Origin: Bolinopsis microptera
Lineage: Eukaryota > Ctenophora > Tentaculata > Lobata > Bolinopsidae
DNA: 64,000 nucleotides
Direction of reading: 5' to 3'
Assembly (NCBI RefSeq): GCF_026151205.1
Contig: NC_087078.1
Coordinates: forward strand, 6,773,675 to 6,837,674
Of the stretch, positions 8,948 through 64,000 are shown one piece after another (the stretch's first letter is position 1; each line of letters opens with the position of its first letter). A model generated the notes under the pieces. It ran no database searches and was not told the origin of the DNA. It worked only from the letters and a program-made list of their open reading frames with translations. A program made the translations under genes and the position numbers.

Positions 8948-10330
<1,383 letters not shown>

Positions 10331-25385: not shown

Positions 25386-28300
25386 TTAATTATGACTAAT
25401 TCGCGAGGTTCTCACCAAATTGATAGTAAAATTGTTTAAGTTTCGTGCATTTGAATTACGCTGACGCGTATCTTCGGTGAGGCTATTTCGCTCTTCGGAG
25501 CAGCGAAGGAAAAAAGTGCACACACAGTTGACAGCATAGGAGCGCCTTTCTTGAAATTGAGTATACTGTGGGGTGTTTGGTTGAATATCAAGTGAGCGGT
25601 GGCAGTGAATATGGAGGCTCTGGTGATTTTGAGGAATTACAGTTGAGTAAGGAGACAAAATTTCCATGAGATGATCTTTGAGATTTGTTTCATTGATATT
25701 GCTGGAGTCGGTGATTTCATTGCTTATTTCAATGATTGGCATTTGAGAAAGATTTTTGACTAATTTCGACCTCTGTTTTGAATACAAGTCACATATGTAA
25801 AGAACATGCGACTCGTCTTCGATGGTCTCAACGCCCATACTTGATTGGCACCAACCACATAGTCTTTGCTCACGGGGTGTGTTGGAGTATCTGCCTCTTT
25901 CAATATGGAGATCATGTGCGCTGATTCTAAGTTTTGTGGTACTGTAACGACGAGAAAAGCCTTTGCATAAGTATAAGTAGGGCTCTCGGTTGAAGGTGTG
26001 TTTGATTGAGTGATAGAATGAGAGTTTAGAAGAAGTAGATTTTTGATATTGCCAACATTTTTTGAATTGATTGGTTAGAGCTTCGATGATTTTAGGAATT
26101 CTATACTTTTTGCTGCATAGTGGTTTGATGGATTGACTAAAATTTGACTGATTTATGAGGGAGTCTTTTAATAATTTGTGATCACTTACAGGGTTGGGCG
26201 CGGCTTTGTTAGCTGCATTTGTATTGAGAATTCGGTGCGCAGTTACGTGATCTAGTTTGTAAATTTCATCTAGTTCAAGGAGTGGTTTTATGTATCGATA
26301 CCAAGGTAAGTTTAGTGATTTTTGTTCTTTTACGGCTGCAGTGACAAACGAATTCGACTTTGATTTTGTATTTAGCCTTTTGAAGTAATTTAACGTTAAG
26401 CGAATTGATTGATAAATCAAAGGAATTCTTCCTGTTTCTCCCCAAACACCTACATTTGATGCTTTACGATGGACTCCCAATGCCCATTTTAGGAATGAAA
26501 TATGCACTCTTTCTTGCAGAGAGGCGCTGATTTTTTTAAGTAAGTTAGTAGCGGTTGCTTCTGTCGAGTTAATCGTTTTGCAAAGAGATTTATTGATCGT
26601 ACTAGTGGGTGTCCATATCGGAGCACCATATAATAGAATGGGCTTGATGAGAGAGTCGAACAGTGTAAGGAGTGCTTTAAAAGATAACTTTGAACGCATG
26701 ACAACCCTTTTCAGGCCAAAAAATGCACGCATTGCTTTGGTTTTAAGGTTTTGTTGAGCGATCTGTACTTGACCCGATTGATGAAGTTCAAATCCAAGGT
26801 AACAATAACTGTCAACAATTTCAAGATTAGATCCGTTGAGTGTAAATTTGATGTTTTGTATGTCCTGTTTTAACGTTTTCTTACCAAAGATGACTGCTTG
26901 AGTTTTGAGTTCATTGATTTCAATGCCCCACTCCTTACAAAAATTACCGAGAATATTAAGTTGCTTTTGAGTGGTTTCCTGGTCGAGTGAAAGGAGTATA
27001 AGGTCATCCGCCCACAGTAGGTGGCTAACAGTCAAATTTGAAAGTACGGGGCAATTTGGAAAATCTAGGAGGCAGGACATATCACTGAGAAAAACTTTAA
27101 AAAGATCAGGTGAGAGTGGGTGACCTTGTTCTGTACCTTTACGTATCTGGAAGCGTTTACTGAGGTGACCAGATAATTTTATGTAAGCGTACGAGTTTGA
27201 GTACATATTTTTGAGGACATTGTAGAAGTTTCCAGTTATGCCATTTTTTGCGAGTTTGAGGAAAAGGGCTTGACGGCAGACTGAGTCGAATGCTTTTTTA
27301 AAATCAACAAATACTGCATATACAGGTTTCCCCAAAAGTTTATATTTTGAAGCTATAGTTTTCATGGTTAGTATGTGATCGTATGTTTGAGCTTTCTTTG
27401 TGAAGCCTAGTTGGTTAGGTGGATCAGGGCAGTTTTCAGAGCGGAAGCGAATGAGTCGTTCTAAGAGAATAGTTGAAAATAGTTTTCCTATGACACTGCT
27501 GACAGCAACTGCACGGTAGTTGTCAGGATCTGATTTATTACCCTTTTTATGAAGTGGAGATATAATGCTGACGTTCCAGGGATAAATTCCTTGTGAGAAG
27601 CAGGCGTTGAAGAGGTTCAACATAATCAATTTATGATTGGTGTCCAGAGATTTTATAATTTCGTTATTAATCATGTCGAGTGAGGAAGCTTTACCATTTT
27701 TTAGGGATTTTATACTAGAGTCAAGTTCTGTTTTGGTGATTAAGGAGTTGAGTGACTCAGGATGAGTTGCACCTTGATTTATCAAGTCAGCTTGATCAAT
27801 CATAGAAACTTTTTTATTTTCATTTATTGTTTTGTGGTTATCGGAATATAGGTTACCAAAAAAAGTCTCGAATCTATTCATATCATGACTGTCAAAATTT
27901 AAAGTTTCCTTTTTCTGATTTTTTAGTTTTTTGAAAGATTGCCAGTTGAGAATTTTCCCCCCCTCTATGTCCTCATTCATACGTGCGAAGAATTCGTTTT
28001 TGGCAGAGTTCTTCAAACGCTTATAGCTACCCTTGACAAGATAATAGTTTTCACGTATAAGGTTGTTTGACGGGAATTTTGAGGTTGCATCTGTAGCTTT
28101 ACGAAATTCTCTTTTACCTAATCTCGTTTTCCAGTTAAACCAAGGTTTGTTTGAGGTGTGAGATTTTTTGGGTGGTTTGGTTTGTTTGAAACACTTCGAG
28201 GCCATGTCGCGAAGGTGTTCTGAAAGTCGTTTGTTAATGTCTTTGAGTTCAGTTTCATAATTACGGTCATTGTCTGCTAAAATATTTTGATTGGTGAGTA

Positions 28301-29312
28301 AGTCGATGTTCGATTGAAGTTCATGGATTAAGGTCAATGATAGATTTTCTGACTGAGCTTCGAAAAAGTCGTCTTTGTTCTCTTCGTTGATAATGTATCT
28401 GGTTGGCGCTGTCTGATAAGTGTCCTGTAATGGGGCGCATTTGTTGATCGCGAATCTATTGCATTGTAATTCAGTACTGAGGGGCTTATGATCAGAATGC
28501 TCGGTGAATGTCAAGATTTTGAAGTAGTTGATTCTGATCTTTGTGGAGTTGGTCACTGCAATGTAATCAATAACGCTGCACCCATTTTTTTGGATACTTG
28601 TGAAGTTTCCTACAAGATCTCCTAGGGTACGGCCATTCAGAATAGTGAGTTGGTTATGTTTGACTAGGTTAAGAAAGTGTGTACCGTAAGTATTTGTGAT
28701 AGAGTCTAGTGAGTTTCGGGGGAGAAAGTTGTCAGGCTCATAATCGTCTGGTAAGGGAACAACGTTGGTTGAGTCTTCTCTTATCATACCCGTTTTTTGT
28801 CCTATACGAGAGTTAAAGTCCCCACACAATATGACTTCGCCCTCCTCCCGAAGTTCGTTCACAACGTCTTCAATGTTTTTTAGAGCATCTTTGCCATTGT
28901 CAGTCGGGTTTGAGGCTGATGAATTAAATGGTCTAATGTAAACGTTAACTATAAATGTATCTTCTGATAGGTTAAAGAAATCCTTGTCTAGTCGACAAAC
29001 TAGGTAGTCTGAACACTCTGTATTCTTGATAAACTCAATCCCTTCAATAAGCTCATTTTTAATGAGGATACCGACACCTCCTGATTTACCGTCTTTCCTT
29101 ATGTTGCAGATTGATCGATATCCTACCAAGTGAACCTCTCTCCTAATTTCCTGAAGACAGGCTATGTCATGATCTTTGATAACATTTTGAAATGATTCTA
29201 TTTCAAATTTGCTCCCATCTACTGATGAAGGCGATTGGATATTCCAAGAAAGTATTTTTATGCTATTTTTATTAATTGAAACCTGTGTATTTTTTTGTGT
29301 GTTTCTAGTCAT
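25386..29312 (-). CDS. LINE ORF2: APE endonuclease - reverse transcriptase (1308 aa)
   Basis: It starts at ATG 29312 and ends at TAA 25386. The N-terminal endonuclease domain (about residues 15-290) shows LSWNIQSP, CLQEIRRE, ILCGDFNSRIG, CSVIDYIAVT and EHSDHKPLST, all catalytic or metal-binding signatures. The RT follows, about residues 545-830: DPDNYRAVAVSSVIGKLFS, QLGFTKKAQTYDHI, VFVDFKKAFDSV (first Asp), GTEQGHPLSPDLFK, and LLWADDLILLSLD (a WADD box instead of YADD). Near the C-terminus a CGWCQ...H...C pattern suggests a zinc-binding knuckle. The protein nicks target DNA and primes reverse transcription from the nick. No stop or frameshift is seen across 1308 codons. Confidence 0.95.
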   Translation of the reverse strand: MTRNTQKNTQVSINKNSIKILSWNIQSPSSVDGSKFEIESFQNVIKDHDIACLQEIRREVHLVGYRSICNIRKDGKSGGVGILIKNELIEGIEFIKNTECSDYLVCRLDKDFFNLSEDTFIVNVYIRPFNSSASNPTDNGKDALKNIEDVVNELREEGEVILCGDFNSRIGQKTGMIREDSTNVVPLPDDYEPDNFLPRNSLDSITNTYGTHFLNLVKHNQLTILNGRTLGDLVGNFTSIQKNGCSVIDYIAVTNSTKIRINYFKILTFTEHSDHKPLSTELQCNRFAINKCAPLQDTYQTAPTRYIINEENKDDFFEAQSENLSLTLIHELQSNIDLLTNQNILADNDRNYETELKDINKRLSEHLRDMASKCFKQTKPPKKSHTSNKPWFNWKTRLGKREFRKATDATSKFPSNNLIRENYYLVKGSYKRLKNSAKNEFFARMNEDIEGGKILNWQSFKKLKNQKKETLNFDSHDMNRFETFFGNLYSDNHKTINENKKVSMIDQADLINQGATHPESLNSLITKTELDSSIKSLKNGKASSLDMINNEIIKSLDTNHKLIMLNLFNACFSQGIYPWNVSIISPLHKKGNKSDPDNYRAVAVSSVIGKLFSTILLERLIRFRSENCPDPPNQLGFTKKAQTYDHILTMKTIASKYKLLGKPVYAVFVDFKKAFDSVCRQALFLKLAKNGITGNFYNVLKNMYSNSYAYIKLSGHLSKRFQIRKGTEQGHPLSPDLFKVFLSDMSCLLDFPNCPVLSNLTVSHLLWADDLILLSLDQETTQKQLNILGNFCKEWGIEINELKTQAVIFGKKTLKQDIQNIKFTLNGSNLEIVDSYCYLGFELHQSGQVQIAQQNLKTKAMRAFFGLKRVVMRSKLSFKALLTLFDSLIKPILLYGAPIWTPTSTINKSLCKTINSTEATATNLLKKISASLQERVHISFLKWALGVHRKASNVGVWGETGRIPLIYQSIRLTLNYFKRLNTKSKSNSFVTAAVKEQKSLNLPWYRYIKPLLELDEIYKLDHVTAHRILNTNAANKAAPNPVSDHKLLKDSLINQSNFSQSIKPLCSKKYRIPKIIEALTNQFKKCWQYQKSTSSKLSFYHSIKHTFNREPYLYLCKGFSRRYSTTKLRISAHDLHIERGRYSNTPREQRLCGWCQSSMGVETIEDESHVLYICDLYSKQRSKLVKNLSQMPIIEISNEITDSSNINETNLKDHLMEILSPYSTVIPQNHQSLHIHCHRSLDIQPNTPQYTQFQERRSYAVNCVCTFFLRCSEERNSLTEDTRQRNSNARNLNNFTINLVRTSRISHN

Positions 29313-29350
29313 GGTATAATGTGTATAAATGAGAATCTATGTCAGTGTAA

Positions 29351-32275
29351 TCACATTCGACTAAGAGGAGAAGGTTCCAATCCCCCTGTAGAACGGACTT
29401 TCTTTGGCTTGTTGAGAAGCAGTCTTGTCATTTCATGGATGCTGTGACGGAAGTTTCCTAGAATGACCTCTTTGCCTCTTGTTGAAAGGTGGACTCCATC
29501 GTTCGTGTGATATTCTCCTATCAGATGATCATCATGCATGAAGTTTGCGTTGGGGTTATAATACAAAGACCGCTCTTTGAAGGGTTTGCGTTCGTTTTTA
29601 TTAGTTACGGTCACAAATTCCCAAATTGCATCCCTTATCTCCCCAATCCTTGCGTTCGCTTCATTGTCAGATGTCATTAGCGGCATTGAGAAGAATAACT
29701 TTGTACCTATCAGGGATTCCTCTACGAATAGTGAAAATTGAAATATGTTGTCGAGACTTACCCTTAAGTCGAAGTTTTGGTTGGCATCATTGACTCCTAG
29801 GTGAACATAGATGAAATCAGGTTGTGTTCTTAATAATTCGTCTTTGACATGTTGGTCTTTAAGTCCACCTGTGTCCCGCTTGTTGATTAGGGTCAATTCA
29901 TGGTTCTTTCCGAGAGCATTCTTGGTGTCCATACCCTGGACATGTCTCAGGATTGAGTCTGAGATGAGGGTCGTCTTGAACACTTTTGAGGGTGTGGTGG
30001 ATCCTGAAGTTTGACGAGTGGTGAAGTCGGAGTTCTGAGTCCTGGTGAAATTGAGGTTCTGAGTTCTGGTAAAGTTGGAGTTCAGAGCTTGAGTAGAGAT
30101 CTGAGCTCGAGAGGCCGAGGAAGTCATGCTGAATCCATTGTTTCTTCGGGACAGCAGGTTGTTTTCTCTACTGTGAGTTCTTTGATCTCGAAAGGGTGAG
30201 GGAGGTTGGTAGGGTGGAGTGTGTGATAAATCATCGTCATTAGGGGAATAGTCAGGTGGGACATCGGTACTCGCGCCATTCCATCCTTCTGACTGAGTGA
30301 CTATTTTGTGAATTTCTTTAATCAGCTGTCCGTCTTCCCGAAAGAATGCACTGTTGTAGTAGTTTTTGAGGTCAAACTTTAGTTTTTGAACACTTTTGTC
30401 TACTTCGTCCGTTTTCGTTTCCGCTATAGAAATCTCCGTGAAAACTTCGTCTACTCTGGTTTTGATCCGTGTGGTAGCTGACAAGTTTTTCTCCCAGAGG
30501 TCTTTGACCTTTTGCATTTCCTTCTTGCCAACCTCTAGTAGTTTTTCGATTTGCTGGATGCTAGTATCGGAGCACTTAAGGCTGTTAACCTCAGATGTAA
30601 GTTTCTCCAACTCCTGCTTAACGTCAATAACTTGGTTTTCGATAACAGTCTGGACCCATGCGAGAGAGGGGAGTTTCGAATCTAAGTCCCTATTCAGAGA
30701 TTTCCTTGCTGGTTCTTCGGGTCTAGACATCACATTCATCATTCTTGCTCTCCTTTCTGTAACAGATCCCTCTGTGGAGCACCCATTCCTCGTTAGTTCC
30801 TCGTTGAGGATGGGTTCAGGAAGATGAGCAACACAAGTAATAAGTGTCTCGGGAGCGACCGTGTGGTTCTCCATAAGAATAACTGTCCTTTCGGTGTCTT
30901 CGGGAGTTGCAGGGCCAACGTTGATATCATCTTTGTTAACATCCAGATGAAGTGACGCAGAGGGCGACCTGATGATTGGATTACTATCCAACAAACTAGA
31001 TCTGCCTTGCTCGGTTAAGTAAGAGGTCTGCGCTTCGGTCAGTTTGATATCAGGACCGCTGGTTGAGGTGATAATAATGTCAGGGATATCCGTCGTCTTG
31101 TTAAAGGTCATTTGTAGTCCATTATCTTTTTCTAAGTTAAAGTCAGGTCTGAAGGGATCATCTACACTAGATCCTTGAAGTTGCTGATGTGTAATAATGT
31201 CAGGTATCTCCGTCGTCTTGTTAAGGGTCATTTGTAGTCCATTATCTATTTCTAAGTTAATAAAGTCAGGTCTGAAAGGGTCATCTACACTAAATCCACC
31301 ATCTGTAGAAGATTGAGAGGGAGCCGTTTCTGACAGAGATGAGACTGAGGTCTGGTCACTTACACAATTTTCCTCGATCGCAGTTGAAGGAGATCCAATG
31401 AAAAAAAGAAGAAGTTGTTCGTTTTGAATATCACTCTTTCCTCTAGGTATGGAATGCATGTACTCAAGAGTGGAATTTCCTGAGAGAACACACAGAGATC
31501 CTGAGTGCATGGGCACCAAATGGGTTACTTTAGTTCCCCGTTTCAGTTTGAGTGATCTTGGGGCCCCAAGGGAAAGAATGGCAACTGTGGGTTTCGCCCC
31601 ATGTTTTCCAGCTAGTGTTTCGTAGGGGATATGATCGTTATAACTTGGGAGTCGCCTGATTACTATGTTGGTGATAGTTGTATTAAGTTCAAATATTGAG
31701 CTCGCTGATTTCTCGATTTTCTTGGTGAGGTAGCTGATCTGATTTCTAAGGTTACTCTCCGGGGTCGAGTCATCTGGATGACCCTCAGACTCTACGCAAT
31801 CATCTTCAATCTCCAGATTTATCTCTTGACGGCTACTCGTTTGGTTAGGGTAATTCGATATATCAACATTCAGCTCACTAAGCAGCCGTTCAGCGGCGTC
31901 GAAGTCAATAAAATCCTCGATGTAGTGTAAAGTACATTTCTTTTTCCTTTGATCCAGGATGTATACCCCGTTCTCCGTGATGGCCTTTGGTTTATTTGAC
32001 TGTTTCTTTTTCCTCTTGTCTTGACTCGAACTACACTCACTAACACTCCTCTCACCTGCACTCATCTCATTTACACTCCCAGATGCACTGCTCTGCTCGG
32101 AGTAACTCCTCATTCTGCGCGAGATCTTCTCTCCGGGATTCCAGTACGGACTTAAGGTTTTTGGTAAGCGAGATGGTTGACTGCTTGAAAGAGTTTCCGT
32201 GGGGTGTGCTTTCTTAGGAGTGCTGTTTGAGTTCTGTGATCTGGAGTCATCGGAGAGATCTTCTTTTCGGACCAT
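29351..32275 (-). CDS. LINE ORF1 with coiled-coil region and SGNH esterase domain
   Basis: I take the first ATG (32275) as the start; the frame stays open about 40 codons further upstream without ATG. The protein has about 974 residues. The N-terminal half is Ser/Thr-rich and includes a tandem duplication of about 45 residues, seen twice as SVDDPFRPDF followed by NGLQMT[LF]NKTT. A central charged segment (VIDVKQELEKLTSEVNSLK, then VGKKEMQKVKDLWEKN) is likely coiled coil. The C-terminal domain is an SGNH/GDSL-type hydrolase: LISDSILRHV (block I), HLGVNDANQ (block III, G-x-N-D) and NDGVHLSTRGKE (D-x-x-H). ORF1 proteins bind element RNA; the esterase is thought to help membrane or RNP interactions in several LINE groups. 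ORF2 starts 38 bp downstream. Confidence 0.9.
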   Translation of the reverse strand: MVRKEDLSDDSRSQNSNSTPKKAHPTETLSSSQPSRLPKTLSPYWNPGEKISRRMRSYSEQSSASGSVNEMSAGERSVSECSSSQDKRKKKQSNKPKAITENGVYILDQRKKKCTLHYIEDFIDFDAAERLLSELNVDISNYPNQTSSRQEINLEIEDDCVESEGHPDDSTPESNLRNQISYLTKKIEKSASSIFELNTTITNIVIRRLPSYNDHIPYETLAGKHGAKPTVAILSLGAPRSLKLKRGTKVTHLVPMHSGSLCVLSGNSTLEYMHSIPRGKSDIQNEQLLLFFIGSPSTAIEENCVSDQTSVSSLSETAPSQSSTDGGFSVDDPFRPDFINLEIDNGLQMTLNKTTEIPDIITHQQLQGSSVDDPFRPDFNLEKDNGLQMTFNKTTDIPDIIITSTSGPDIKLTEAQTSYLTEQGRSSLLDSNPIIRSPSASLHLDVNKDDINVGPATPEDTERTVILMENHTVAPETLITCVAHLPEPILNEELTRNGCSTEGSVTERRARMMNVMSRPEEPARKSLNRDLDSKLPSLAWVQTVIENQVIDVKQELEKLTSEVNSLKCSDTSIQQIEKLLEVGKKEMQKVKDLWEKNLSATTRIKTRVDEVFTEISIAETKTDEVDKSVQKLKFDLKNYYNSAFFREDGQLIKEIHKIVTQSEGWNGASTDVPPDYSPNDDDLSHTPPYQPPSPFRDQRTHSRENNLLSRRNNGFSMTSSASRAQISTQALNSNFTRTQNLNFTRTQNSDFTTRQTSGSTTPSKVFKTTLISDSILRHVQGMDTKNALGKNHELTLINKRDTGGLKDQHVKDELLRTQPDFIYVHLGVNDANQNFDLRVSLDNIFQFSLFVEESLIGTKLFFSMPLMTSDNEANARIGEIRDAIWEFVTVTNKNERKPFKERSLYYNPNANFMHDDHLIGEYHTNDGVHLSTRGKEVILGNFRHSIHEMTRLLLNKPKKVRSTGGLEPSPLSRM

Positions 32276-32405
32276 AAAAACTTGAAGTTGCTGATTGAGG
32301 AATGGAGTAGGTAGATATCTTTTTTTCTCCGTAAAAAGCGTTGAACTGTAGGCATCCAAAGGTTTCAAATGAAATTTAGAGAATTCAAATGAGTGCTCGG
32401 ATCAC

Positions 32406-44899: not shown

Positions 44900-46120
44900 A
44901 TTGTTAATTTAACAGCTATTTACTTGTATATCATATATGCTTAAAATGAGATGGGCTATACACGTTTCATGATCAAACTCCTGTGATCTTGGGCTCAATT
45001 TCTAACGGTATAAGATTATCAGGCCCAATGAATCCACTATACATTATACAATATGAATATACAAGGGAAGCCCCACAACCTCAGTGTAGTAATTTACAGT
45101 TCTCTGAGCTCGGACCAAATGAAACAAGATTTAAAGAAGGAGCAAAAAAGAAGCCACCGAGAAATCTTCCTTCTTCTCTTCAGATTCAAATTTGTACTTA
45201 TCATGTGTGTCAATAAAACCCATAATCAATCCCCCCCCCCCCCCCCCCCCCCCCCCCCACTTCCCCCAAGTCAATAAGAAGTAACCGTACAAATATAATG
45301 GAGATCCTCCATTCCGACCCTTTTAAGAGATCTTCTGAATAATCAAGTTGACGTGTTTATTCAGGAGATTCTTTAGAACAACAAAAGACAACAATCATTT
45401 AAACGATACAGATCTTTTGCCAAAATTAGGGCTCTAATATTTAAAAAGGTTACATTCTGCATCATAATGAGGTATGATCAATATAATTAAAGGTTAAATT
45501 TTACTAATCGGAATGCAATCATGCAATATACTCAATACTGGGACACAGCACTCAGCCCCAAAGCAACCTCACACAAATGGTGTTCCTGTACCAGACGTAC
45601 CTCTCATCCACAATAATCTAAAACGATAACAATTGTTGGAATAAGTATCTGGAGACACACAGATCGAAAGCATGGCAAGGGATCCTGGGGCTCACAGAGG
45701 TGATACAGATTAAAAGATGTTGTCTAAACGGAAACCATAAATCGAGATACTCGTGACAACATCTTAAATTCTTAAAGGTGAGTGTGGCCTGCACAGAGAG
45801 ACAAAAATATAAAAGTGATACAAAGGGGAAGAAATCGGAAGGGAGAAACATTTGCATTGACATGAAAGGATTTATTGAGTGTTGTACAAACCACCCAATT
45901 AGATCATAAAACCATCTTGCACGTAAATTGCAGTAGTTAAGATAAAACCATTTTGCAGGTATAATTTGCAGTAGTTAAGGGGGCCATCGTTTACCAATAC
46001 TACACCAGAACTTTATGATATGCAGCACAGGTAATAATCAAATTAAGCGGTGCTGTGTGAGAATCGGAGAATGTTTAGCAAATTTTACAGTTCCCGCTGG
46101 AGGCAAAATACCAATGCTTA
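44900..46120. other. Intergenic apart from the C tract
   Basis: Short ORFs at 44983-45277 (plus) and 45618-45863 (minus) show no domain. A short direct repeat (ataaaaccat[ct]ttgca, then attgcagtagttaag) lies at 45907-45980. Confidence 0.5.
45231..45258. repeat. Homopolymer of 28 C
   Basis: An uninterrupted C28 run in AT-rich sequence. The length is likely unstable between individuals or assemblies. Confidence 0.95.
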
Positions 46121-46126
46121 ATTTGA

Positions 46127-48090
46127 CCAAAACCCATAATCATGGGTAGAGTGGACCGCTGCCAGTGTCTCTCTTTCCCAAACAAAAGGAAATGATATTA
46201 ATTTGATTGACCGTTTTCAAATGCAAAATGATACCGAGAATGAAATCGGTCGCTCGCTTTTCCCATTCATTCACGGCTTATACGAATTGCAATAGGTTTC
46301 GATAAATTACATCGATCACATGCTGTAATAATCTCTTTGGTGTTTGGGTTGCGTTCGGGTCGATACCTAGTATTTCGGGATAAGGGTGGTAGTTAGTGAA
46401 TTAGCTGAAGTTTATTGAATCTTTATTGCCGAGTACAGCTGTCTTCGGGTATTACATTTGTAAATGAATGGGAAAGCGAGCGACCGATTTCATTCTCGGT
46501 ATCATTTTGCATTTGAAAACGGTCAATCAAATTAATATCATTTCCTTTTGTTTGGGAAAGAGAGACACTGGCAGCGGTCCACTCTACCCATGATTATGGG
46601 TTTTGGTCAAATATCATCGCTTTTTGATTAATGTCAGGGTACTTTATAAAGTCGAAATATAAACTGATATCTTCATTAATAAGGAGGAAGTTTCAACGAT
46701 TTCGAAATTTTTCCTTTGAAAACATTTCCTTGTGTTTGGGTAAGCATATCGGTCGATCGCTGACTGAATTTGCCACTTTATACTCATTCAAGTTGGCATT
46801 AAATTTATATATAATGACATTGAACTGTCGTGGTAAAGCAGAATTTGTTCGAAATCACGAATGAGCAAAATTATCACCTTTCGCACGTGCAAACTATGAG
46901 CGGACGTTGCGTGCGCATCCAATATTGAATCGCCGTAAATTTTTGCGTGTTGGTGTTTTATATATAGTTTGATAAGCATGCAAAGTTTCAAAGTATTTCA
47001 AGAAGAACTGCAATCACAACGGCACACCAACGTTTACAGAAAATGGTAAAAACAGCAATTTTCAGTGATTTTAGCAATTTTCTATCAATTTGGGCGTGTC
47101 CCCACGTGTGCAACTTTTAGATTTTTAACTTTAAAACTAGCCTAATACACAATTTATACCTATAGGAAGCAGAACTGAGCTCCACAACCCAAGGGATAGC
47201 CCAGCACCAGAGAATACTAAATCGCAAAATTGACGTTTTTATAAAATAATTCTTCAAAAAAGCACTAACTTCAATGGCAAATATCTTTATGAAGGAGCAA
47301 GGTAGGGAAACTTTCCGGTAGATTTTCAGAATGCTTGAACAATTATCTAATATAAAAATGTCCTCAGATTTCGAATAAAATTACTCCTTAATGGTGTAAA
47401 ATCAGTTTGAAAAGTTGTTATTTTGTCAAAAATAAAGTTTTAAAAACACTTAATTTGATGACGTCATCAAGTGGTGATGATGACGTTAAATTATTTTTTG
47501 ATATAATTGAAACTGAAGTGTAAACAATTATCTTTAAGACCTGTGGTCGGAAATTGCTGTATCTTTTATACTTTTGAATCTCCGGACACTTAAATTCAGG
47601 CTACAATTGACTACATTTGACTGGCAAAGCGTCTATCCCTGAATATATGTATCACGACAATCTATCGTAAAACAGGGGTTCCAGAAAACCCATTTCCCGA
47701 TACTCCTGAAACACGAAATTTTTTTTACAGTCGATTTGGTCAACGTCTAGACGCCCTGCAAAGTTTCAGATCTTTAACTTAATTCTAACATGGTTTTTAA
47801 GGCACCTGAATATGGCAATTTTGGGTTTTTTACCGAATTTCGTATAACATGCTGGCGCGTATTTTGCGTAAATTTCTTAAAAACCTCCACATAACTATTT
47901 CTTGTTCCTGTCATCTTTAACATTGAATTAGAATGATTTGAACTTAAATATACCTGCTGAACTACTTTCGATGAGTCTTAATGCCCGAAAAACAATAAAG
48001 GGTTATATTTATAAAAGTAAAGGGGGTAAATAGTAAAGGGGGTAAATAGTATTGTGAATATAAGAAGCACGGTCATGCTTGCCAGTATTG
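46127..48090 (+). mobile_element. Solo unit of the A-A'-B-C element
   Basis: A lies at 46127-46280 and A' at 46464-46612, with a spacer of about 180 bp. B runs about 46612-47640, and C about 47650-48090, ending gcttgccagtattgtgatgg. It matches the modules at 17.7-21.6 kb in one orientation and without internal inversion, so it defines the unit. The small ORFs inside (46631-46864, 46788-46991) coincide with ORFs at the same place in the other copy and are not convincing genes. Confidence 0.85.
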
Positions 48091-54230: not shown

Positions 54231-54800
54231 CATAATATTGGTATTACTCGATTTATTCATATTTTAGAAGACATAAGTCCGTGTATATAATTATCTTTAT
54301 AGAATAATTGGATAAAATATTTATTGCAAGTTGTGTCTGCGAAAATATACGTGTGAACTGCTCATACCGCAAATACAGAAAAATAGATGTTATAATACCT
54401 ATCATAAAATCACCGCCCGCACCCGCACACGACAGAGGTTAATGACTGCTTTATACAAATATTATATCATAAAGATGTTTTGCCAAGAGCAACCGAAACC
54501 TCCCATCGGGAGAACGGCTAGTAACGCATTTAATTACAGTAAATCAAAACATTGCCATATCATAGCAACCATTCCAGGAGATAAGAATTGTGTGAGTGTA
54601 AGAAAAATTAATTATATAGTCTGCTAGAAATTCCGTTACACATATGGTAAAATAATAAATATGGTGGCCGATAATAACTGCCCCCTTGCTTAGCAACTTG
54701 TTCAAATTTCTCCTCCGAATTACTTCAATTACACACAAATTTCAAAATAGATAGATCTGTCCGAACAAGATTTCTGAAAGTTTCTAGACTTAAATCAAGG
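54230..54800. other. Intergenic, no gene recognised
   Basis: AT-rich sequence between the SINE and the first receptor-family remnant. The 98-residue ORF at 54331-54627 has no recognisable domain or splice context. Confidence 0.45.
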
Positions 54801-54804
54801 TCAT

Positions 54805-54903
54805 CTCTACAATGATGTCGTGCTACAAACTGAACCTGCTCTAGATGAATCAGCATACGATTACGTACGAATCGAGGATGTGGTGAGGCACAACATTAGA
54901 TGA
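54805..54903 (+). pseudogene. 3' remnant of an MNNL/DSL-like receptor gene
   Basis: The last 33 codons of the intact gene at 58442-59959, through QTEPALDESAYDYVRIEDV to the TGA, recur here almost without change, followed by the same 3' UTR (54904-55660 matches 59960-60760). Nothing coding precedes it. It marks the left boundary of the duplicated block, offset by about 5.06 kb. Confidence 0.85.
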
Positions 54904-55664
54904 ACCAAGGTTTGGCAGAGTCTTGAGTAGAAATTATTCCATATGAACTGTTCAAGTAATCCGACTGTTGTCAAATTCTATAGTATTATATTTGTATTAC
55001 TCGTTTGAGTTATTGTTTGCTGCAATTTGTTTTCTTTTTCAATGTATGTTACTAATTAGTGTTTTGATCTTTTTTTAGAATTTACTCGATAATTATCAGA
55101 ATTTTTTTACTAATACATAGTAAGTAAATATTTGAGCATGTTTAAGACTATTCCATGTTTAGTGCTTTCATTTGATAATTCCGTTTATAATATTGGATAA
55201 CTGACCCCTTTTTTGTATGTTTTATCCAATGCATGTTATTACTATTGAACATAGATTAGTTGTGGTTTGTTTAGTGATTAAAAATTATTGATTAAATTCT
55301 CCAGCGTATTATTTTGTACAGTCGAACTTAATCTAATATCGGCGACAGAACTAAAAAAACAGTGTCAGAACTAGGAAACTAAATTGTGACTTATGAAATC
55401 CCTATGATTAAAAAGGTGATTCCAATAGGTTTTAACTCTTGAACTCTCAAGGAGAGACGTTCATAGAATTATAAGTCGCTCACCTTGCCTGGTAAAAGGT
55501 ATAAGCAGCAAACAAATATATGTTAGGTTTCCTTGAAAATTCGATAAATCACAATTTGAGCTAATCAAAAACCTATTAGCTTCCTGATCAATCTAAAATA
55601 AGGTTCCAGACACAAATGACCAAAATAAACCGTCCCTCCTCCTCTCGCCTGATCGATGTAAAAC

Positions 55665-57144
55665 TTAATTTGTGGGAGCCGACTGTGATGAATATGCTCC
55701 GAACTACTATCCTAAAGGAACATGTGATGTGTTCTGTGAGCCTGAAGTAGGACATTACAATTGCACTGATCAAGGAACCAAAGTGTGTCAATGTAAAACT
55801 AAGATTACATTGTTACAACCTCAAGTAACAAAGTAACAATTACCTTATTCCTTGCGTACTGTATGTGTTAACATGTCCGTTTTCTCTGTGGTGGGTAAGA
55901 TGTATGGACATGTCTAGTAGAGGAGCTCTGTTGCAGTGATGCTTCTACTTTTCTTGCTCTTGCAACTCTTTCAAGTGATATTTGACTGTTCTAATCGTGC
56001 CACCTGGGTAACAACTCGTGGCTCTATATCTATCCAACAATAATATTTTATCATCACACGAGTAAACTTATATCGTCCGTAGTCCGTAATCCTTACACTT
56101 TACTTTATTAACTACCAGGAACAGCTACAATGCAGTGGGTGAAATAAAGTTTCTGAGTTACGAGGATTTGTATGAGAGACCTTTGGTGGATGCTTGTGAT
56201 TTCTACTTCAGACCACTAATAATTGAGGATGAAAATGGTAATGTTTTACACAAAATAACAAAGACTACAGTTACCAAAGACACAGCGATTGCTGATTTAA
56301 CAAAAGTAGCGGAGCTCAAAAATGCAATTCAGATCAGTGTAGCGACAAATAAGACAGTAAGGATCTTTACCACAATATGGGACAGTGAGACTGGAGCTTA
56401 TAAAAGGGTCAGGACTCAGGGAGAGAAACAACTTCAGGGTTCCTTTCGATAATGTGTCAGTTGGTGATGATTGGAAACAAGCGGTAAACAACATGTTGTT
56501 GTTTCCTATGTATAGGAACAACTGTTAGATTATAAACTTACACAGTGTGATACTAATGTGACCGGACTTGGATGCAATTTTCGTAAAACGGGGCATTTCA
56601 CAGATCTCTGTGATGAGTGGATAGAATACTACACTACGGAGAGAATTGTACAGTCTATTGTAAGCCTGATGAGTACTTTGTGTGCTCAGAAATATGTGAG
56701 GTTGTGAATTTAAGGTCTTCTGGTAACTTTAAAGTAATAGTTTAGTTAACAAAGTTTCTTTTACTTTTCCTACGCTGTGTTATACTTGTGAGATAATGCC
56801 CAGCAAGCAACAGTCAAATAGGTAACTATTTGAAAGCTAACAACAGTAAAGATAATTATTTGGAAGCTATTCCCACTATTTTGGATCATTCCAATGAGGA
56901 TATTGGAAATTACAACTACAATTACTATTTTTCAGCCGACGAAGCCCACTATACCGGAGTGTGGATAGCAGCAGTTGTCTTTCTAACAACGGTTCTGGCT
57001 GCATTTTGTATTCTACACTCACGTAGAAAACAGGGAAACTTCTCTACCCGGAATTTGATCTACGTTGTCGTTACTGTTAGTACTGCAGTGTGGATAGCAG
57101 CAGTACACCCAGATCGAGGGCATTACTTCCATCGGGCACTATAG
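55665..57144 (+). pseudogene. Broken MNNL/DSL-like receptor gene, copy 1
   Basis: The pieces of one gene are visible. A Cys-rich fragment (ADCDEYAPNYYPKGTCDVFC) lies at about 55678-55790. A signal-peptide exon (MLLLFLLLQLFQ, 55939-55974) follows. An MNNL-like exon from 56119 reads GEIKFLSYEDLYE, then ACDFYFRPLIIEDENGNVL, and ends in a frameshift after ETGAY at about 56400. Downstream are a Cys fragment (ENCTVYCKPDEYFVC at about 56640) and a TM plus juxtamembrane piece (VWIAAVVFLTTVLAAFCILH, about 56960). The start of the MNNL exon is also out of frame with its acceptor, a defect shared with copy 2. Compared with the intact gene, the central Cys repeats are shortened. Confidence 0.75.
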
Positions 57145-57689
57145 ATGATGTCACCCGGTATACCGTACAGTTACCAAAAGATACTTGGTTACCTTAAACG
57201 CTTAAATATAGTATTGGAATTTTAGCATTCCACTGTGCAAAAAGTATGGCGTCGGATATTCTACACAAACTTGAAGTTGATCTATAGGGTCCCTATTAAC
57301 ACCGTCCAAAATTTTCCAACAAAATTCCCATGGGAAATTGGAAAAGTCTTTACAGCGATTCAAAGTAATAGAAAGTATTGAAATCATGGCAACCGAACTT
57401 ATCTCAGTTCAATTTTAGAGAACTGTAATACCGTAAATAGAAATATATCTTGACTAACGCGTGAGTTTGATAAATTTTGATAAACGTTTCTACTACCTAG
57501 GCCCAGTAAATTAAAAAGCACGTTAAGTGGGTTATAGGCTATAGGGGTACAGTAAATCTATATTTTACTTCATTTAACCCCGTATTATTCTCCTTCTTGA
57601 TTTTTTAGTATAATAATAGTCTGTTTTTTGTTCCAGTAACTTATAGTAGGTACCAGCACTCCCACAAAGTCACATATTTTTAAACTTTT

Positions 57690-58080
57690 TAATACTTTCA
57701 ACACTTGGATCATGGTTTTAGACAAAGGGAAGATTTTAACAAAATTTTTAATGTGTCAATTATTGATAATTCTAGTCCTAAAACTTTGGATGTACGTGAA
57801 CATAAATATATTCAACTACTCAAGACTTTAAAACCTTTGGGAATTAACACTATAAATCCTTTTGGCCTTCCATTACTCCTAACATCTTAATTTTAACTTT
57901 ATAACCGTTTTAAGAGTGTTCAGATTTTTAAATGAATTTTGGGTTTTACTAACTTTTTACAATTTCTAGGGCTTATGTCACTGAAGATGACGCCTTGCAA
58001 CATGTTTGACGATAGCCTGTAGATTGATAGTTTGATCTCAGTATTTACAACAATTCATCTAGTTTGATTGATTCAAAGGG
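57690..58080 (+). mobile_element. 3' end of a Penelope-like element (GIY-YIG end) relic
   Basis: A short open stretch ends LDVREHKYIQLLKTLKPLGI, then NTINPFGLPLLLTS. R-E-x-K-Y-I-x-L-L-x-T-L-x-P-x-G-I-N is the closing motif of GIY-YIG endonuclease domains in Penelope-like elements. A tail with cactgaagatgacgccttgc follows, similar in kind to the 3' segments of such elements. The rest is missing. It sits between receptor copy 1 and the intact gene, about where copy 1's tail would be. Confidence 0.5.
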
Positions 58081-58441
58081 AAACAAATTCCTTTGTTACT
58101 TTCAACACAACTATATGACAAATAATACGAGGAGATCTCTGCAGATGATTTATTTGATGAGTTCAAGAACCTTATAAACTGTGTATGATTCGCCTCTCCA
58201 GACAAACCTAGAGAAAGTCACACATAGTATTAGTATGTTCTAACTTGGGGTGAGATGATATATCAAGAAAACTTGATACGATAACAGCTCGTTGAGTAGA
58301 GAACTCAAGAAACTTGATATGTAAAACCCAGAAATCAGAATTGCGCCGTTAAATGTATATTAAGTAGGAATATGATGTTGCATTGTTAAGATACGAGGCG
58401 ACATTCGTTAACTTTTGTGTGGACTGATACGTTTTTTTAAA

Positions 58442-59959
58442 ATGGGGCTGTTATTTTTAGTATTTATACTTCTGCTGGTAAGTGCTGATTGAATATAAAG
58501 TTTAATTAACTTATAAGAGTCATGAATATCAGTTTTATTTACTAGCTCAAAGTAAACCCGAATGTTCCCACAGTTCACAAATCACAAGCATTTCCTTGCT
58601 AACACAAGCCTTTCCTTATTACGCTTAACTGAAATCAACTCTTTTTAGCAGGACCAGATTTACAGCAGTGGAATTGGTCAGATTAAATTCATCAAGTATG
58701 TGGACTACTCTAGTTGTGGTGAACCATGTGATTTTTACTTTAAACCGCTAACAATCCGAGATGAAGACGGCAACACTCTAAAAAACATACCGAAGACTGC
58801 TAGTACAAGTAACACGAAGACAGTTAATTTAACATTGGTGGAAGAGCTGAAAAATCCTATTGAGATCACCGTTCCGACGAACAAAACGGTGAACATTTTT
58901 ACCTCAGTTTGGGATGAAGACACAGGTGCATACGGTGCTGATGATTGGATAAGAAATATTACCAACTTTAAGATTCTTTTCGACACAAGGTCGGGTAATC
59001 AAGACTGGGAAATAGCAATTCAGACCAAAAGGAACCCGAGCATGCAATTTATGGTCAGCTACAGATTGTTAAGTTGTACTGTTAATTTCACCGGAGTAGG
59101 ATGCAATGTCTGTGTGAATGATCAATACACAAACCAGTGTAACGTGTACTGTAAACAGGACCTTAACTATTACACGTGTGACCCGACAACAGGAGGGAAG
59201 ATCTGCGTAGTAGGCAAACAGGGAGACAACTGTGATGAGTGTGAAAACGGAAAGATTGGACAAGACTGTGACCAATGTAAAAGTAACTTTGCAGGAGATG
59301 ATTGTGATATATGTGCTGAAGGGTTCTACCCTAAAGGAACATGTGGTGTGTACTGTATTCCAGACGGAGAGAATTACACTTGTAATGATGAAGGAGAGAA
59401 GCAGTGTCGTGGTAATAGAGATGGTGAGGAATGTGATGAATGTAAACCTAACTTTTACAAAGAGGACTGCTCGATCATCTGCAAAGAAAATGAGTTCTAC
59501 AATTGTACTGAAGATGGAGAGAAGGTCTGTCACAACTCCACTGCCAAATTGGAGGACAACTGTGGGCGCCCAGGTGAAGAAGAGAAAAAAGACAAAGAAG
59601 ATGAAGAAATCGGAGCATCTAATAACACTTTACTTATTGGGATAAGAGGAGGAGGTGGACTGCTTCTCTTCTTCGTGATACTTGTGATAACACTGTTAAT
59701 CAGAAAACAAAGAAGAGATAGGGAGGAGAATCTCAGCACCGGAAATGTTATATACGTTAATAATAATACTGCAGTTCCGAACCCCGCTGAAACAATCCCT
59801 ACGACTGAACACAACTATGAAAATTATGTTCCCCCAGTTACCTCGCCCACCAATGGTCATTTCTACAATGATGTCGTGCTACAAACTGAACCTGCTCTAG
59901 ATGAATCAGCATACGATTACGTACGAATCGAGGATGTGGTGAGGCACAACATTAGATGA
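58442..59959 (+). CDS. MNNL/DSL-like type-I membrane receptor, intact (about 447 aa)
   Basis: Exon 1 (58442-58477) encodes the signal peptide MGLLFLVFILLL with donor gtaagt. Exon 2 (58652-59959; acceptor tttttagcag, or a CAG earlier) encodes the rest. Residues about 13-150 resemble the Notch-ligand MNNL region: SGIGQIKFIKYVDYSSCGEP, then CDFYFKPLTI, NPIEITVPTN and MVSYRLLSC. Residues about 160-310 hold DSL/laminin-EGF-like repeats of the form C-x3-C-...-Y-x-C-...-C-x-G-x-x-G-x-x-C, for example QCNVYC and KQGDNCDEC. There are several N-glycosylation sequons. An acidic/Lys linker leads to one membrane span (about 344-364, LLLFFVILVITLLI), then RKQRR and an 80-residue tail with tyrosines in NYENYVPP, FYNDVV and SAYDYVRI (the S-x-Y-x-x-V form of an ITIM). 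Probably a cell-surface recognition or signalling protein. No true EGF array follows, unlike Delta/Jagged. Confidence 0.82.
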
Positions 59960-60760
59960 ACCAAGATTTGGCAGAGTTGTGAGTCGAAATTATTCCGTAT
60001 GAACTGATTAAGAAATATGACTGTTGTCAAATTCAAAGTATTATATTTTTATTACTGGTTTGAGTTATTGTTTGCTGCAAACCTAACGAACTAAAGAACT
60101 TGACGTGTTAAATATGACAGTTTTTTCTTCAATGTATGTTATTAATTAGTGTTTTGATCTTATTCTAGAATTTACTCGATGATCATGAAGAATTTGTTTA
60201 CTAATACTTGTGAATATTTGAACATGTTTAAGACTAGATCCCATGTTTAGTACTTTCATTTGATAATTCCGTTTATGAAATCGGATAACTGACACGTTTT
60301 TTGTATGTTTTATCTATGATCTAATGCATGTTATTACTATCGACAATAGATTAGAAGTGGTTTGTTTAGTGATTACAAAATTATTTATTAAATTCTCCAG
60401 CGTATTATTTTGTACAGTTGAACTTAATTTAATTTCGGCGACAGAACTGAAAACAGTGTCAGAACTAGGACACTAAATTGTGACTTATGAAATCCCTATG
60501 ATTAAAAAGGTGACTCCAATAGGTTCTGACTCTTGAACTCTTGAGGAGAGACGTTCATAGAATTATTAGTCGCTCACCTTGCCTGGTAAAAGGTATAAGC
60601 AGCAAACAAATATATGTTAGGTTTCCTTGAAAATTCGATAAATCACAATTTGAGCTAATCAAAAACCTGTTAGCTTCCTTATCAATCTAAAATGAGGTTC
60701 CAGACACAAATGACCAAAATACACCGTCCCTCCTCCTCCCTCCTGATCGATGTAAAATTG
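59960..60760 (+). repeat. Duplicated 3' flank of the receptor gene
   Basis: The 3' UTR and flank match 54904-55660 closely, with small indels such as an extra gcaaacctaacgaactaaag near 60080. It includes AT-rich 3' UTR sequence and the block ctcaccttgcctggtaaaag. Confidence 0.9.
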
Positions 60761-62200
60761 GTTTTGTGGGAGCAGACTGTGATGACTATGCTCCGAACAT
60801 CTATCCTAATGGAACATGTAATGTGTTCTGTGAGCCTGAAGTAGGACATTACAATTGCACTGCAATCAAGGAACCACAGTGTGTCAATGTAAAACTACGA
60901 TTACATCGTTACAACATCAAGTAACAAGGTAACAATTACTTTATTCCTTGTGTACTTTGTGTTAACATTTGCGTTTTCTCTGTGATGGGTAAGATGTATG
61001 GACACGTCTAGTCGAGGAGCTCTGTTGCAGTGATGCTTCTACTTTTCCTGCACTTGCAACTCCTTCAAGTGGTTATTTGACTGTTTTAATCGTGCCACCT
61101 GGGTAACAACTAGTGGCTCTATCTCTATCCAACAATAATCTTTTATCATCGCATGAGTTAACTCATATCGTCCGTTGTCCGTACACTTTACTTTCTCAAC
61201 CACCAGGAACAGCTACAATGCAGTGGGTGAAATAAAGTTTCTGAGTTACGAGGATTTGTATGACTGCAGCAATGAGGTACCTTTGGTGGATGCTTGCGAT
61301 TTCTACTTCAGACCACTTATTATAATTGAGGATGAAAATTGTAATGTTCTACTTCTACACAAAATAACAAAGACTACAGTTACCAAAGACACAGCAATTG
61401 CTGATTTAACAAAAGTAGCGGAGCTCAAAAATGCAATTCAGATCAGTGTACCGACAAACAAAACATTAAGGATTTATATCCTTACGGCTACCGGACAACT
61501 GAACCCAATTTAGACAATTTAGACTAACCCTAACCATAAAATTTTTACCACAATATGGGACAGTGAGACTGGAGCTGATAAAAGGGTCAGGGAGATAAAA
61601 CGTCAGGGTTCCTTTTGATGTTGTATCAGTCGGTGATTATTGGAAACAAGCGGTAAACAACATAGGAACAACTGTTAGCTTTACCGTTAAATATAAACTT
61701 ACACAGTGTGATAATAATTTTACCGGACTTGGATGCGGTTTTTGTAAAACGAGGCATTTCACAGATCTCTGTGATGAGTGCATAGAATACCACTTTATAC
61801 AGTAAAGATACTTATTTGGAAGCTATTCCCACTGTTTTGGATCATTCCTGTGAGGATATTGGAAATTACAACTACAATAACTATTTTTCATCCGACGAAG
61901 CCCACTATACCGAAGTGTGGATAGCAGCAGTTGTCTTTCTAACACTGGTTCTGGCTGCATTTTGTATTCTATAACCACGTAGAAAACACTCACGTAGAAA
62001 ACTTCTCTACTCGGAATTTGATCTACGTTACTGTAATTAGTACTGCAGTATCCAACCAGACTGAAGAAATGGTGGCTACTCCTGAACACAAGTACAGTGT
62101 TGTAACTTCCGAAGATGCTCCTTACATCGACAACACTATTGATGGAACCTCACCCATTACCCAACTATGATCATCGCTACAATAATGGCGTGCCCCCAAC
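60760..62200 (+). pseudogene. Broken MNNL/DSL-like receptor gene, copy 2
   Basis: This is a near-duplicate of copy 1: a Cys fragment (ADCDDYAPNIYPNGTCNVFC, about 60768-60880), a signal-peptide exon (MLLLFLHLQLLQ, about 61033-61068), and an MNNL-like exon from about 61207. That exon retains the extra DCSNEVPLVDACDFYFRPLI segment lost in copy 1 but stops early at about 61513 after an insertion (cctaaccctaacc-like). Cys, TM (VWIAAVVFLTLVLAAFCIL) and tail fragments continue to about 62200 with stops and frameshifts. The shared out-of-frame start of the MNNL exon shows the defect predates the duplication. Confidence 0.75.
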
Positions 62201-62209
62201 TGATAAGCT

Positions 62210-64000
62210 ACTCAAAATGAAACATCATATAGATTTGTAACACATCGTCAAGATAATAATGTGTCAGATCCTCTCACAGGCGCTCTCCTGCTCGCTCTAG
62301 ATCTCCTTTCAAACACTCCCTTTCTTATGACTCTCCAAGATACTCGTTCACTTTGTGACAGCTAAACATGAGACTCTACTGGTCACGTATCAGTATTGGT
62401 ACCTCGTGACTGTGTTATGTTAAAGTTAGAACGTGTATTTTGTTAAGCGCTACAATTCAATAGTCTTATTTGATGGACATTGTGATAACAATTTCATTTA
62501 TTAATTCAACTTATCGCATAATGCCAGATTGTTCACAACTAAAATACTGATATGAAGTATAATATTAAAAAAAGAGGTAAAATACAACAAATTGTATGAT
62601 ATTTAGATAATATAGTTTATTCGTTATACTACATCATAGAACTATTTAGAACATATAACTCTGCCAAAAAACACGTGATACCAGCAGTTAATACTTAATC
62701 CTTAGGGTTTTAAATATTAGTCAATAGGTATAATCCATCAACTAGAAAACTTTACCAACTTTATTATTACGTTTATACGACTAAATATAATATCGCAACA
62801 AATTCTACTTTTCGACGTGCAAGATCACTGGAATCTCTTATCATACCAATTGAATATTTTATTGGTGTCACTGATTGAAAAACGAAAAGTCGAATTTGCC
62901 GAGAAAACTAGTCCTGGTTTGATACAATTCAAGGACATTTTAAATGTTAAATAAAATACTCAAAACTAACATCTTAGCAGAAACCATATGTACAGAAATC
63001 TGTTCGTACATTTTTCAGACGACTCGTACAAATACATTGAACACTAAATTCTCCTTCATCATAGAATAATAAATACAAATAAAACAAATCATAAATTTTG
63101 CGTTTTACCGTTTTTTTTCTAACAGAAATAAAAGAATAATATCTCCTCCGTTTAAAGCTGACTAAAGTTATTTCATCTTTCGTTGCTAAGACCAAAACTT
63201 CTAGCATCTTACACTGCATAGTTACAGATGTAAACGTGAATGGTATTCCAATTTCCAATCCTAAATCTGACATTCTTGATATTTATTTTGGGACTTCTTA
63301 TTTCAAATTTTGTAGTACACATACTGCTAACAAAGCATACTATGACCATAACTGGATTATGTATCATCCTTTAAATATTTGCAGTTAGATATGATTCTCC
63401 AATTAACTGTTGACTTGAAGTCCTCGTTAATGGTTATATGTTTGTATATATATACAGACAGGTTTGATAAAGATACGTTGCTCTGGTAACCTCCAACAAC
63501 AGGAAATAACTCTTCCTGCACAAGGTCGATGAGAACTGCGGATAATCTTGTGCTGTGTTCAACGCATGTTCTGAGAGCAGATATCACATGACAGTGGGTC
63601 TCGGATCACCATATTTGGTTGTGTTACCACGGCAACACTACCATATTTGGTAATGTTACCACAGCAACACTACCTTACATGGTCACATCACACGACAGCT
63701 CTCGGATCACCGTTAGGTTCTGACAGATCGTGCTCTACTAACAACTTAACGTTATCACACGACCCACCGTTACTTTGAGGAGAGTTCAGTGGTTTAAGGG
63801 CGAGAGGGACGTTAGTTCTGGAGGGTTGGGTAGGAGCCCTACCAGTTACCCAGTAGGTGAATATCTCCCCTTTACCCTTGATGTCGGTTATACCGCGAGG
63901 TTCCAGGGTGTGTGTACCATTGAGAGAGAGAGCTTCGTATGTTTCTGGACTACAGTGTATCTTTAGAGCTGCGGGTGGTGTTGGTTAGGTGTCAGCTTTA
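62210..64000. other. Intergenic, no gene recognised
   Basis: AT-rich up to 63.3 kb. 63600-63680 holds a doubled unit of about 33 bp (accatatttggt, gttaccac[ag]gcaacact). Short ORFs at 62974-63273, 63357-63587 and 63775-63966 carry no recognisable domain. Confidence 0.5.

Follow-up and report, generated by a model that had tools for sequence, protein, structure and literature searches.

A 64,000-nucleotide stretch of the Bolinopsis microptera genome (assembly GCF_026151205.1, contig NC_087078.1, positions 6,773,675 to 6,837,674 of the forward strand), referred to below as the window, contains one intact gene (window 58442-59959, plus strand; two exons, one intron) within a small cluster of damaged relatives. 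The product has 448 residues. A leader is followed by a head (about 143 residues, with YRLLSC at its end), and a cysteine-rich stalk and a single membrane span connect this head to a tail of some 84 residues. As judged from sequence comparison, the gene is a mosaic, in which head, stalk and span of class B are joined in frame to a tail of class A, and the locus belongs to a multigene family of ctenophore surface proteins that cross the membrane once. The tails of this family fall into at least two classes, a short one rich in YxN (A) and a longer one rich in YxxV/I/L (B), and tail class shows no association with head phylogeny. The genome-wide family, the mosaic intact gene and the scattered tail classes all go beyond the original prediction, which had been made from the letters of the window and described a recently duplicated cluster of a Notch-ligand-like receptor with a tyrosine tail.

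The joint in the intact gene and the tail classes of the family

The 5' part of the intact gene is 95.1% identical over 1479 aligned bp to the paralogue L012a (C7:6,470,841-6,472,318), which lies 360 kb away and bears a different, B-class tail. Exon 1 of L012a (MGLLLLVFILLL) and its GTAAGT donor are the same as in the window gene. Beyond the joint, the similarity is to another paralogue: from position 59764, identity to L013 (C7:6,587,672 on) amounts to 89.9% over 971 bp and, further to the right, to 91.6% over 2483 bp; the L013 ectodomain shares just 42% protein identity with the intact gene. Compared in register over 30 bases, identity changes between 59690 and 59750 from 0.9 to 0.33 for L012a and from 0.2 to 0.8-0.9 for L013, with that to L012a beginning to fall at about 59705. 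When positions 59600-59900 were searched against the genome, eight matches were obtained, the window included, and none of the seven others spans the junction. The left half matches C7:6470841-6470988 only, while the right half matches four other places (86-90%), 46 bp of the remnant within the window and, at low strength, one place on C8. Because the right-hand homology continues via the 3' flank and a broken gene to position 63990, colinear with C7:6,587,672-6,595,489 (L013-L014), the junction is the edge of a duplicated segment. A separate predicted exon, preceded by a phase-1 donor, encodes the span and the A-class tail in L013, L014 and L019. The intact window gene has a glycine-rich span as in B genes, directly joined to the A tail, and is therefore the likelier derived form.

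In principle, such a structure could also arise if reads of two paralogues had been joined near 59750 during assembly. The animal is diploid, it has many close paralogues and the junction is present only once in the assembly. However, the two sides differ from their nearest relatives by 5% and 10%, so that neither represents a known locus in the wrong place, the reading frame is open across the junction, and the right-hand homology extends for more than 4 kb. The assembly paper describes construction from long reads and Hi-C data (PMC10232365), and the scatter of tail classes is independent of this single gene. We thus regard an artefact as very improbable; misassembly poses a small risk for the mosaic and none for the family-wide pattern.

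The family was delineated by searching the genome (264.65 Mb, 232 contigs) with the intact window product. At least 132 matches were obtained. By our count, at least 32 of them mark places that carry the head domain in whole or in part, a lower bound because 96 of 126 candidates were scored. Nineteen of the 32 lie on C7, the chromosome of the window, in groups at 1.65-1.72, 6.23-6.24, 6.46-6.47, 6.58-6.60 and 6.83-6.84 Mb with one at 17.74 Mb, and the other 13 are spread over seven other chromosomes; the published assembly comprises 13 chromosome-scale scaffolds (PMC10232365). At least three of the head-bearing places are broken (C7:6829803, 6592940 and 6834891). The long open frames of the fetched loci follow one common plan of head, repeats, membrane span and tail with tyrosine motifs, and stalk length ranges from three repeats up to 14 DSL stretches. 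The absence of a long array, as claimed originally, therefore holds for the intact gene but not for the family, where one paralogue has 14 DSL stretches. Heads from 23 of the 32 places were aligned, the remainder being partial, broken, near-copies or not fetched.

Some further copies deserve mention in their own right. Four equal-scoring receptor-fragment copies at C7:1726509, 1728934, 1731359 and 1733784 are spaced by exactly 2425 bp and form a fresh tandem array. The DSL domain has 146 matches in the genome at E 0.1 or better, among which there are locus pairs with equal or nearly equal scores on different chromosomes (C3:7471k/C11:12854k, with 99.1% DNA identity over 2.7 kb; C1:23359k/C13:11776k; C1:1411k/C8:2036k) that are either recent copies or assembly duplicates.

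The seven A tails have NVxYxN, NY[DE]N and YxY[AV]R in common, while YAD[VI] and, at the terminus, Y[IA]T[VI] are common to the eight aligned B tails (the alignment of B-tail ends did not include L009, the frame of which stops early). YxN occurs 18 times in the A tails against 4.7 expected, a number reached by none of 500 shuffles, and five times in nine B tails against 7.1 expected, i.e., without enrichment. Conversely, YxxV/I/L is found 65 times in B tails (12.3 expected, none of 500 shuffles) and, less enriched, 17 times in A tails (9.1 expected, 3 of 500 shuffles); over 21 tails the count is 119 against 36.2 (standard deviation 5.5, maximum 53 in 1000 shuffles). A looser double motif of two YxxL/I/V separated by 5-12 residues is present four times in A (0.8 expected) and 12 times in B (0.5 expected). 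The residues three and four places before the tail tyrosines are acidic in 42% and 37%, respectively, and acidic residues upstream of the tyrosine are found in many tyrosine-kinase sites. We also considered a reading of the tails by immunoreceptor tyrosine-based inhibitory motifs (ITIM) or strict activation motifs (ITAM) and dropped it: two ITIMs in A and one in B compare with 2.2 and 2.3 expected, and strict ITAMs number zero. The related switch motif (ITSM) was not enriched in A or B tails either, and NPxY occurs in none of the 16.

Two tails contain internal repeats. In the B-class tail of the second gene of the pair at C2:7.70 Mb (L022:1-2110, minus strand), a 36-residue unit is repeated about five times; every copy has a single YSRI or YNRI motif, and motif number seemingly grows here by internal tandem repeats. 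The second gene of the pair at C4:11.37 Mb (L020:4990-5950) has a tail with about five units of some 22 residues, each with YSNL or similar.

For comparison with head phylogeny, 16 of the 23 rows in a maximum-likelihood head tree were labelled by us as A (seven) or B (nine), while seven heads did not enter the count, their tails being of another or an unknown class. Tail class changes five times on this tree, and at least four of the changes are forced by well-supported branches. Shuffled labels require a mean of 5.5 changes, and 220-232 of 500 shuffles need no more than the observed number; tail class is thus no more clustered than by chance. Among the ten rows with head and tail in one frame or in neighbouring exons, three changes are needed, all of them forced (shuffled mean 3.6-3.7). 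This is seen most plainly in two pairs: the window gene with L012a, and the adjacent L022a and L022b, which are 92% identical over 1011 bp of ectodomain and carry an A tail (damaged by a stop) and a B tail, respectively. L015 had been a candidate for a second sharp mosaic and was dropped, as its homology to L014 runs across both sides of the joint and identifies it as an only partly converted copy. B-tail frames, which would hint at alternative splicing, were not found in the fetched A-class loci L013, L014, L015 and L019.

The head domain and the relationship to Notch ligands

The original prediction had assigned an MNNL-like head to the intact product. A Pfam MNNL match is absent from the window protein and from all 23 family heads, and the genome-wide MNNL search was run without a positive control. 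It should be kept in mind that domain software also misses MNNL in most sponge Deltas, as stated in two reports (PMC3482393, PMC5684314), and the missing match therefore weighs less than the DSL loop and the stalk.

What fold the head may adopt was approached with profiles and models. With the window protein as a single sequence, phmmer returned nothing from the PDB at E 10, so that a family profile was needed. The profile of 23 heads with the first repeat matched the DSL domains of Jagged, Serrate and Delta (E 3e-6 to 3e-4), and a head-only profile weakly matched C2 domains from protein kinase C (E 0.17-1.1), with odorant-binding proteins, which are unrelated, appearing alongside (E 0.79-2.9). 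A structure model of the head from three window sequences reached a mean predicted local distance difference test score (pLDDT) of 50.6, with residues 11-80 averaging 63-76 per ten-residue block. In Foldseek, the top five matches of this low-confidence model are all C2 domains, with E between 6e-3 and 4e-2, and no match attains 0.001. A second structural comparison, with VIA, likewise gave mostly C2 domains at Z 5.0-6.1, all short of 8. It included Drosophila Delta C2-DSL-EGF1 (Z 5.1, 114 residues aligned), which has, at 15%, the top identity among 50 rows. The N-terminus of Notch ligands is a C2 fold, with which the title of entry 7alk agrees. A [WY]DxD motif resembling a C2 calcium loop is found by pattern in 20 of the 23 heads and in alignment register in 19, the motif of L021a being out of register. 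Z values of this size are common, and a head of the C2 type, the fold of Notch-ligand N-termini, is therefore regarded as likely and no more. An MNNL-like head in the sense of Pfam is not supported, while a C2-type one is probable.

The prediction of DSL and laminin-EGF-like repeats in the intact product was confirmed by Pfam, with 32.6 bits for EGF_laminin and 24.9 bits for DSL, just over the cut-off of 24.2. In the family, 21 of the 23 head-plus-first-repeat pieces match DSL at E up to 10 (best 3.1e-7), and eight of nine full paralogue frames lie over the cut-off, the exception being L012a (21.9). Together with the profile matches to Jagged, Serrate and Delta, the probable C2 head and the presence of LNR domains in the genome (four matches at two places, among them the locus of a Notch-like protein at C9:10.3 Mb), this would suit lineage-specific, Delta-like Notch ligands signalling in trans to a Notch receptor, with a tail for endocytosis. 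In these ligands, the 11-residue loop of the DSL domain carries Notch receptor contacts. The corresponding loop between the two inner DSL cysteines has only 7-8 residues in 136 of 138 pattern-fitting family repeats (one has 9, one 11; counted over 34 frames, two of which are unrelated window frames adding no repeats), as opposed to 11 in Jagged-1 and in all three canonical-looking DSL copies of the Bolinopsis genome. The latter are located at C3:8.85 and 3.45 Mb and are the three best-scoring of the 146 DSL matches. Furthermore, no classical EGF array exceeds the curated Pfam cut-offs, DSL and EGF_laminin being the only domains in the ten scanned proteins, and the tails are built around tyrosines. 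A genome search for NOD, run without a positive control, gave nothing. Since MNNL is found in none of the 23 heads and the loop has 7-8 residues rather than 11, the family is, by its predicted domains, a relative of Notch ligands and not a member. Membership as claimed originally is not borne out, and a role as Notch ligand is quite unlikely.

The likeness to Delta and Jagged consists of a probable C2-type N-terminal head, DSL-type repeats and a single membrane span, while the lack of a Pfam MNNL match, the short DSL loop, the tyrosine-motif tails and the large, apparently reassorting family set the ctenophore proteins apart. Their stalk is made of repeated DSL/laminin-EGF-like units, in contrast to one DSL followed by an EGF array in Delta/Jagged. 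DSL repeat arrays are also described for cnidarian DSL-only genes, in those sections of Gazave 2009 (PMC2770060) that deal with them: these genes have 1 to 11 DSL repeats, one combines MNNL with three DSL domains, and whether they are true genes or misassemblies was left open. Unlike for the ctenophore family, the same sections do not mention a tail, tyrosine motifs or tail exchange. The coupling of DSL domains to tyrosine signalling in Monosiga, where a Delta-like receptor tyrosine kinase with two DSL domains is reported (PMC4810162), is similar in kind, but that protein has its own kinase; a kinase domain was not matched in the nine scanned ctenophore paralogues. The same study states that Mnemiopsis is devoid of diagnostic Delta domains and that Pleurobrachia has a Delta (PMC4810162), yet the Bolinopsis genome yields 146 DSL matches at E 0.1.

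A possible role in recognition and competing explanations

Close paralogues were compared by the ratio of nonsynonymous to synonymous substitutions (dN/dS), as simple pairwise counts without confidence limits for ten pairs picked by us; tail values were left out where tails differ in class or lie in another frame. The ratio is higher for the head than for the stalk in all ten pairs (0.68-2.04 versus 0.24-0.85) and in six of six pairs that share no gene. Tails of classes B and C gave 0.36-0.50 in four pairs, and the A tail of the window gene gave 0.35-0.59 against L013, L019 and L009 (dS moderate). Such values are consistent with heads in which change is either tolerated or favoured.

Taken together, we consider it reasonably probable that the family comprises recognition receptors with phosphotyrosine tails that are reassorted by recombination between paralogues. 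The head would bind a ligand, either membrane-borne or microbial, and the stalk would hold it away from the membrane. A tyrosine kinase would phosphorylate the tail tyrosines, on which SH2 proteins could then dock, Grb2-like ones at YxN of A tails and others at YxxV/I/L of B tails. Recombination between paralogues would set the same head on another tail, and such an exchange may alter what a recognition event triggers, as in paired receptors. Some support for a role in recognition comes from the faster evolution of the heads. The paired immune receptors KIR, SIRP and CEACAM have near-identical ectodomains on different tails, clustered genes and pseudogenes. Near-identical ectodomains with tails of differing class are likewise found here, in the window gene and L012a (95% over 1479 bp) and in L022a and L022b (92% over 1011 bp); KIR, SIRP and CEACAM differ in having other ectodomain folds, and the ctenophore tails follow a YxN/YxxPhi grammar without ITIM enrichment.

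Several observations weigh against a recognition role with tail exchange. Head dN/dS lies below 1 in seven of the ten pairs, which also fits relaxed constraint, gene conversion may distort the pairwise values, and two of these are high: the A tails of L013 and L009, with a single synonymous change between them, gave 2.28, and a value of 3.94 between the window gene and L012a for the 36 codons preceding the joint probably reflects a joint that starts slightly earlier. The rows of the shuffle tests are related, so that the tests overstate independence. In L009, L016, L021b, L022a, L022b and L012b, the head is in another frame than the tail, and the two were assigned to each other because they are adjacent; two of the seven A-labelled tails (L012b and L022a) carry lesions; without these, three changes remain over 14 rows. 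With ITIM, ITSM, NPxY and strict ITAM not enriched, the predicted tails are not textbook immune-receptor tails. The tail of the window gene, for which several YxxV/YxxI motifs had been claimed, is indeed a tyrosine tail, but its three YxxV/I/L motifs against 1.2 expected (standard deviation 1.0) are not significant, and this signal sits at the family level and not in the window tail alone.

Two further functions have to be weighed. Draper, CED-1 and MEGF10, as well as receptors of the SCARF/Tie type, combine laminin-EGF-like repeats with a phosphotyrosine tail, and the ctenophore family has both of these in common with them; its profile weakly matches Tie2 (E 0.015) and SCARF1 (E 0.13). As engulfment receptors, the proteins would bind exposed lipid through the C2 head and drive uptake through the tail, to which the calcium-loop-like motif of the heads and the very weak protein kinase C matches reported above would lend themselves. 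On the other hand, an EMI domain was not found in Pfam scans of the window protein and nine paralogues, NPxY is missing from the A and B tails, and DSL-type repeats and a C2-type head distinguish the family from Draper, CED-1 and MEGF10. For engulfment with a constant lipid as ligand, moreover, neither a rapidly changing head nor an exchange of tails is required, and we regard this reading as unlikely. Alternatively, the family could be adhesive or structural, with changes of tail and head reflecting drift and gene conversion. The dN/dS values, mostly below 1, agree with this, but the tail tyrosine motifs are kept within classes and heads outpace stalks in every pair, which makes such a function unlikely.

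If the family does consist of recognition receptors with reassorted tails, the ctenophore cluster points to a recognition system of early animals in which sensors and outputs are mixed. We put forward, as a tentative possibility, that ctenophores independently evolved combinatorial recognition, in which diversifying C2 heads on DSL stalks were repeatedly recombined onto two interchangeable phosphotyrosine tails with different SH2 grammars. Should this be true, one of the earliest branches of animals would possess a paired-receptor system built on neither immunoglobulin nor lectin folds, and the split between sensing and signalling output that is characteristic of vertebrate immune receptors would have arisen with other parts near the animal base. 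No description of the family was found in the open-licence literature among the matches listed; the word ctenophore never occurs in a 2024 review of invertebrate Notch (PMC10970066), and DSL, Notch, tyrosine and laminin never occur in the main text of a 2025 survey of ctenophore immune genes. The family now provides a concrete gene list to test.

Organization of the locus and further observations in the window

Frames as well as protein and DNA matches bear out the cluster of one intact gene, two broken relatives and a 3' remnant that had been proposed for this part of the window (Table 1). In broken relative 1, the head match is interrupted by two TGA, one TAG and one TAA, and in broken relative 2 the head frame stops after 118 residues and a TAA follows in a later piece. 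Four repeats connect the duplicated blocks: 54796-55025 with 59851-60080 (93.1% identity), 55029-56364 with 60120-61473 (90.0% over 1371 bp), 56363-56629 with 61541-61790 (82.4%) and 56843-57089 with 61799-62049 (89.0%). Offsets are 4.96-5.18 kb, and identity, which is far above chance, extends over the noncoding flanks. The description of the blocks as nearly identical was correct in including noncoding sequence and too strong in its wording, as identity is 82-93% and mostly about 90%. Blocks of this kind and stop-bearing relatives are in line with the tandem duplication with broken copies that had been put forward.

Table 1 Features of the receptor locus, in positions of the window
Feature	Position	Strand	Description
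3' remnant of A-class tail	54793..54903	+	Protein match 54793-54900 to the last 36 codons, 92% identity, then stop; DNA repeat D4 from 54799
Duplicated block, copy 1	54799..57089	+	DNA repeat comparison within the window
Broken relative 1	55669..57144	+	Repeat, head and membrane span/tail pieces with stops
5' part of mosaic	58269..59747	+	Homologous to B-tail gene L012a
Exon 1 of intact gene	58442..58477	+	ATG, 12 codons, signal-peptide-like hydrophobic leader MGLLFLVFILLL, GTAAGT donor
Exon 2 of intact gene	58649..59959	+	436-codon open frame with head, DSL/laminin-EGF-like repeats, membrane span and tail; stop 59957-59959
Head of intact gene	58649..59077	+	Ends at YRLLSC; based on the 23-head family alignment and weak Foldseek/structural matches to C2 domains
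Mosaic junction	59747..59764	+	Coding sequence just inside the membrane after the span; reading frame kept
3' part of mosaic and flank	59764..63990	+	A-class tail, 3' flank, broken gene
Duplicated block, copy 2	59855..62049	+	DNA repeat comparison within the window
Broken relative 2	60706..62170	+	Repeat, head and tail pieces

Elsewhere in the window, two long open frames of 1316 and 1016 residues (25386-32401, minus strand) resemble, when read by eye, a retrotransposon without long terminal repeats. Also by eye, an intronless actin gene with a single open frame was recognized at 9113-10330 (plus strand). The long open frame at 11963-13897 (minus strand) matches lipoxygenases, best 11R-lipoxygenase 3vf1 (E 6.5e-60). 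Repeated or inverted elements of up to 1.5 kb that are about 86-99% identical (17669-21355 and 46120-48002) likely represent a mobile repeat. In the genome at large, an Antp-class homeodomain query had no match at 1e-8 and a GFP query had none, both without a positive control, and the best cathepsin L match, the one that was read, has a cysteine active site; a sponge and a cnidarian host had been considered and were rejected. Outside the window, a minisatellite with a period of about 64 bp lies downstream of the L014 gene (L014:7136-7977), and a stretch of it is also present in L015. Innexins have 14 matches in the genome, and two innexin genes with equal scores, C7:6754013 and C7:6935049, flank the window at a distance of 181 kb from each other, a sign of further segmental duplication.

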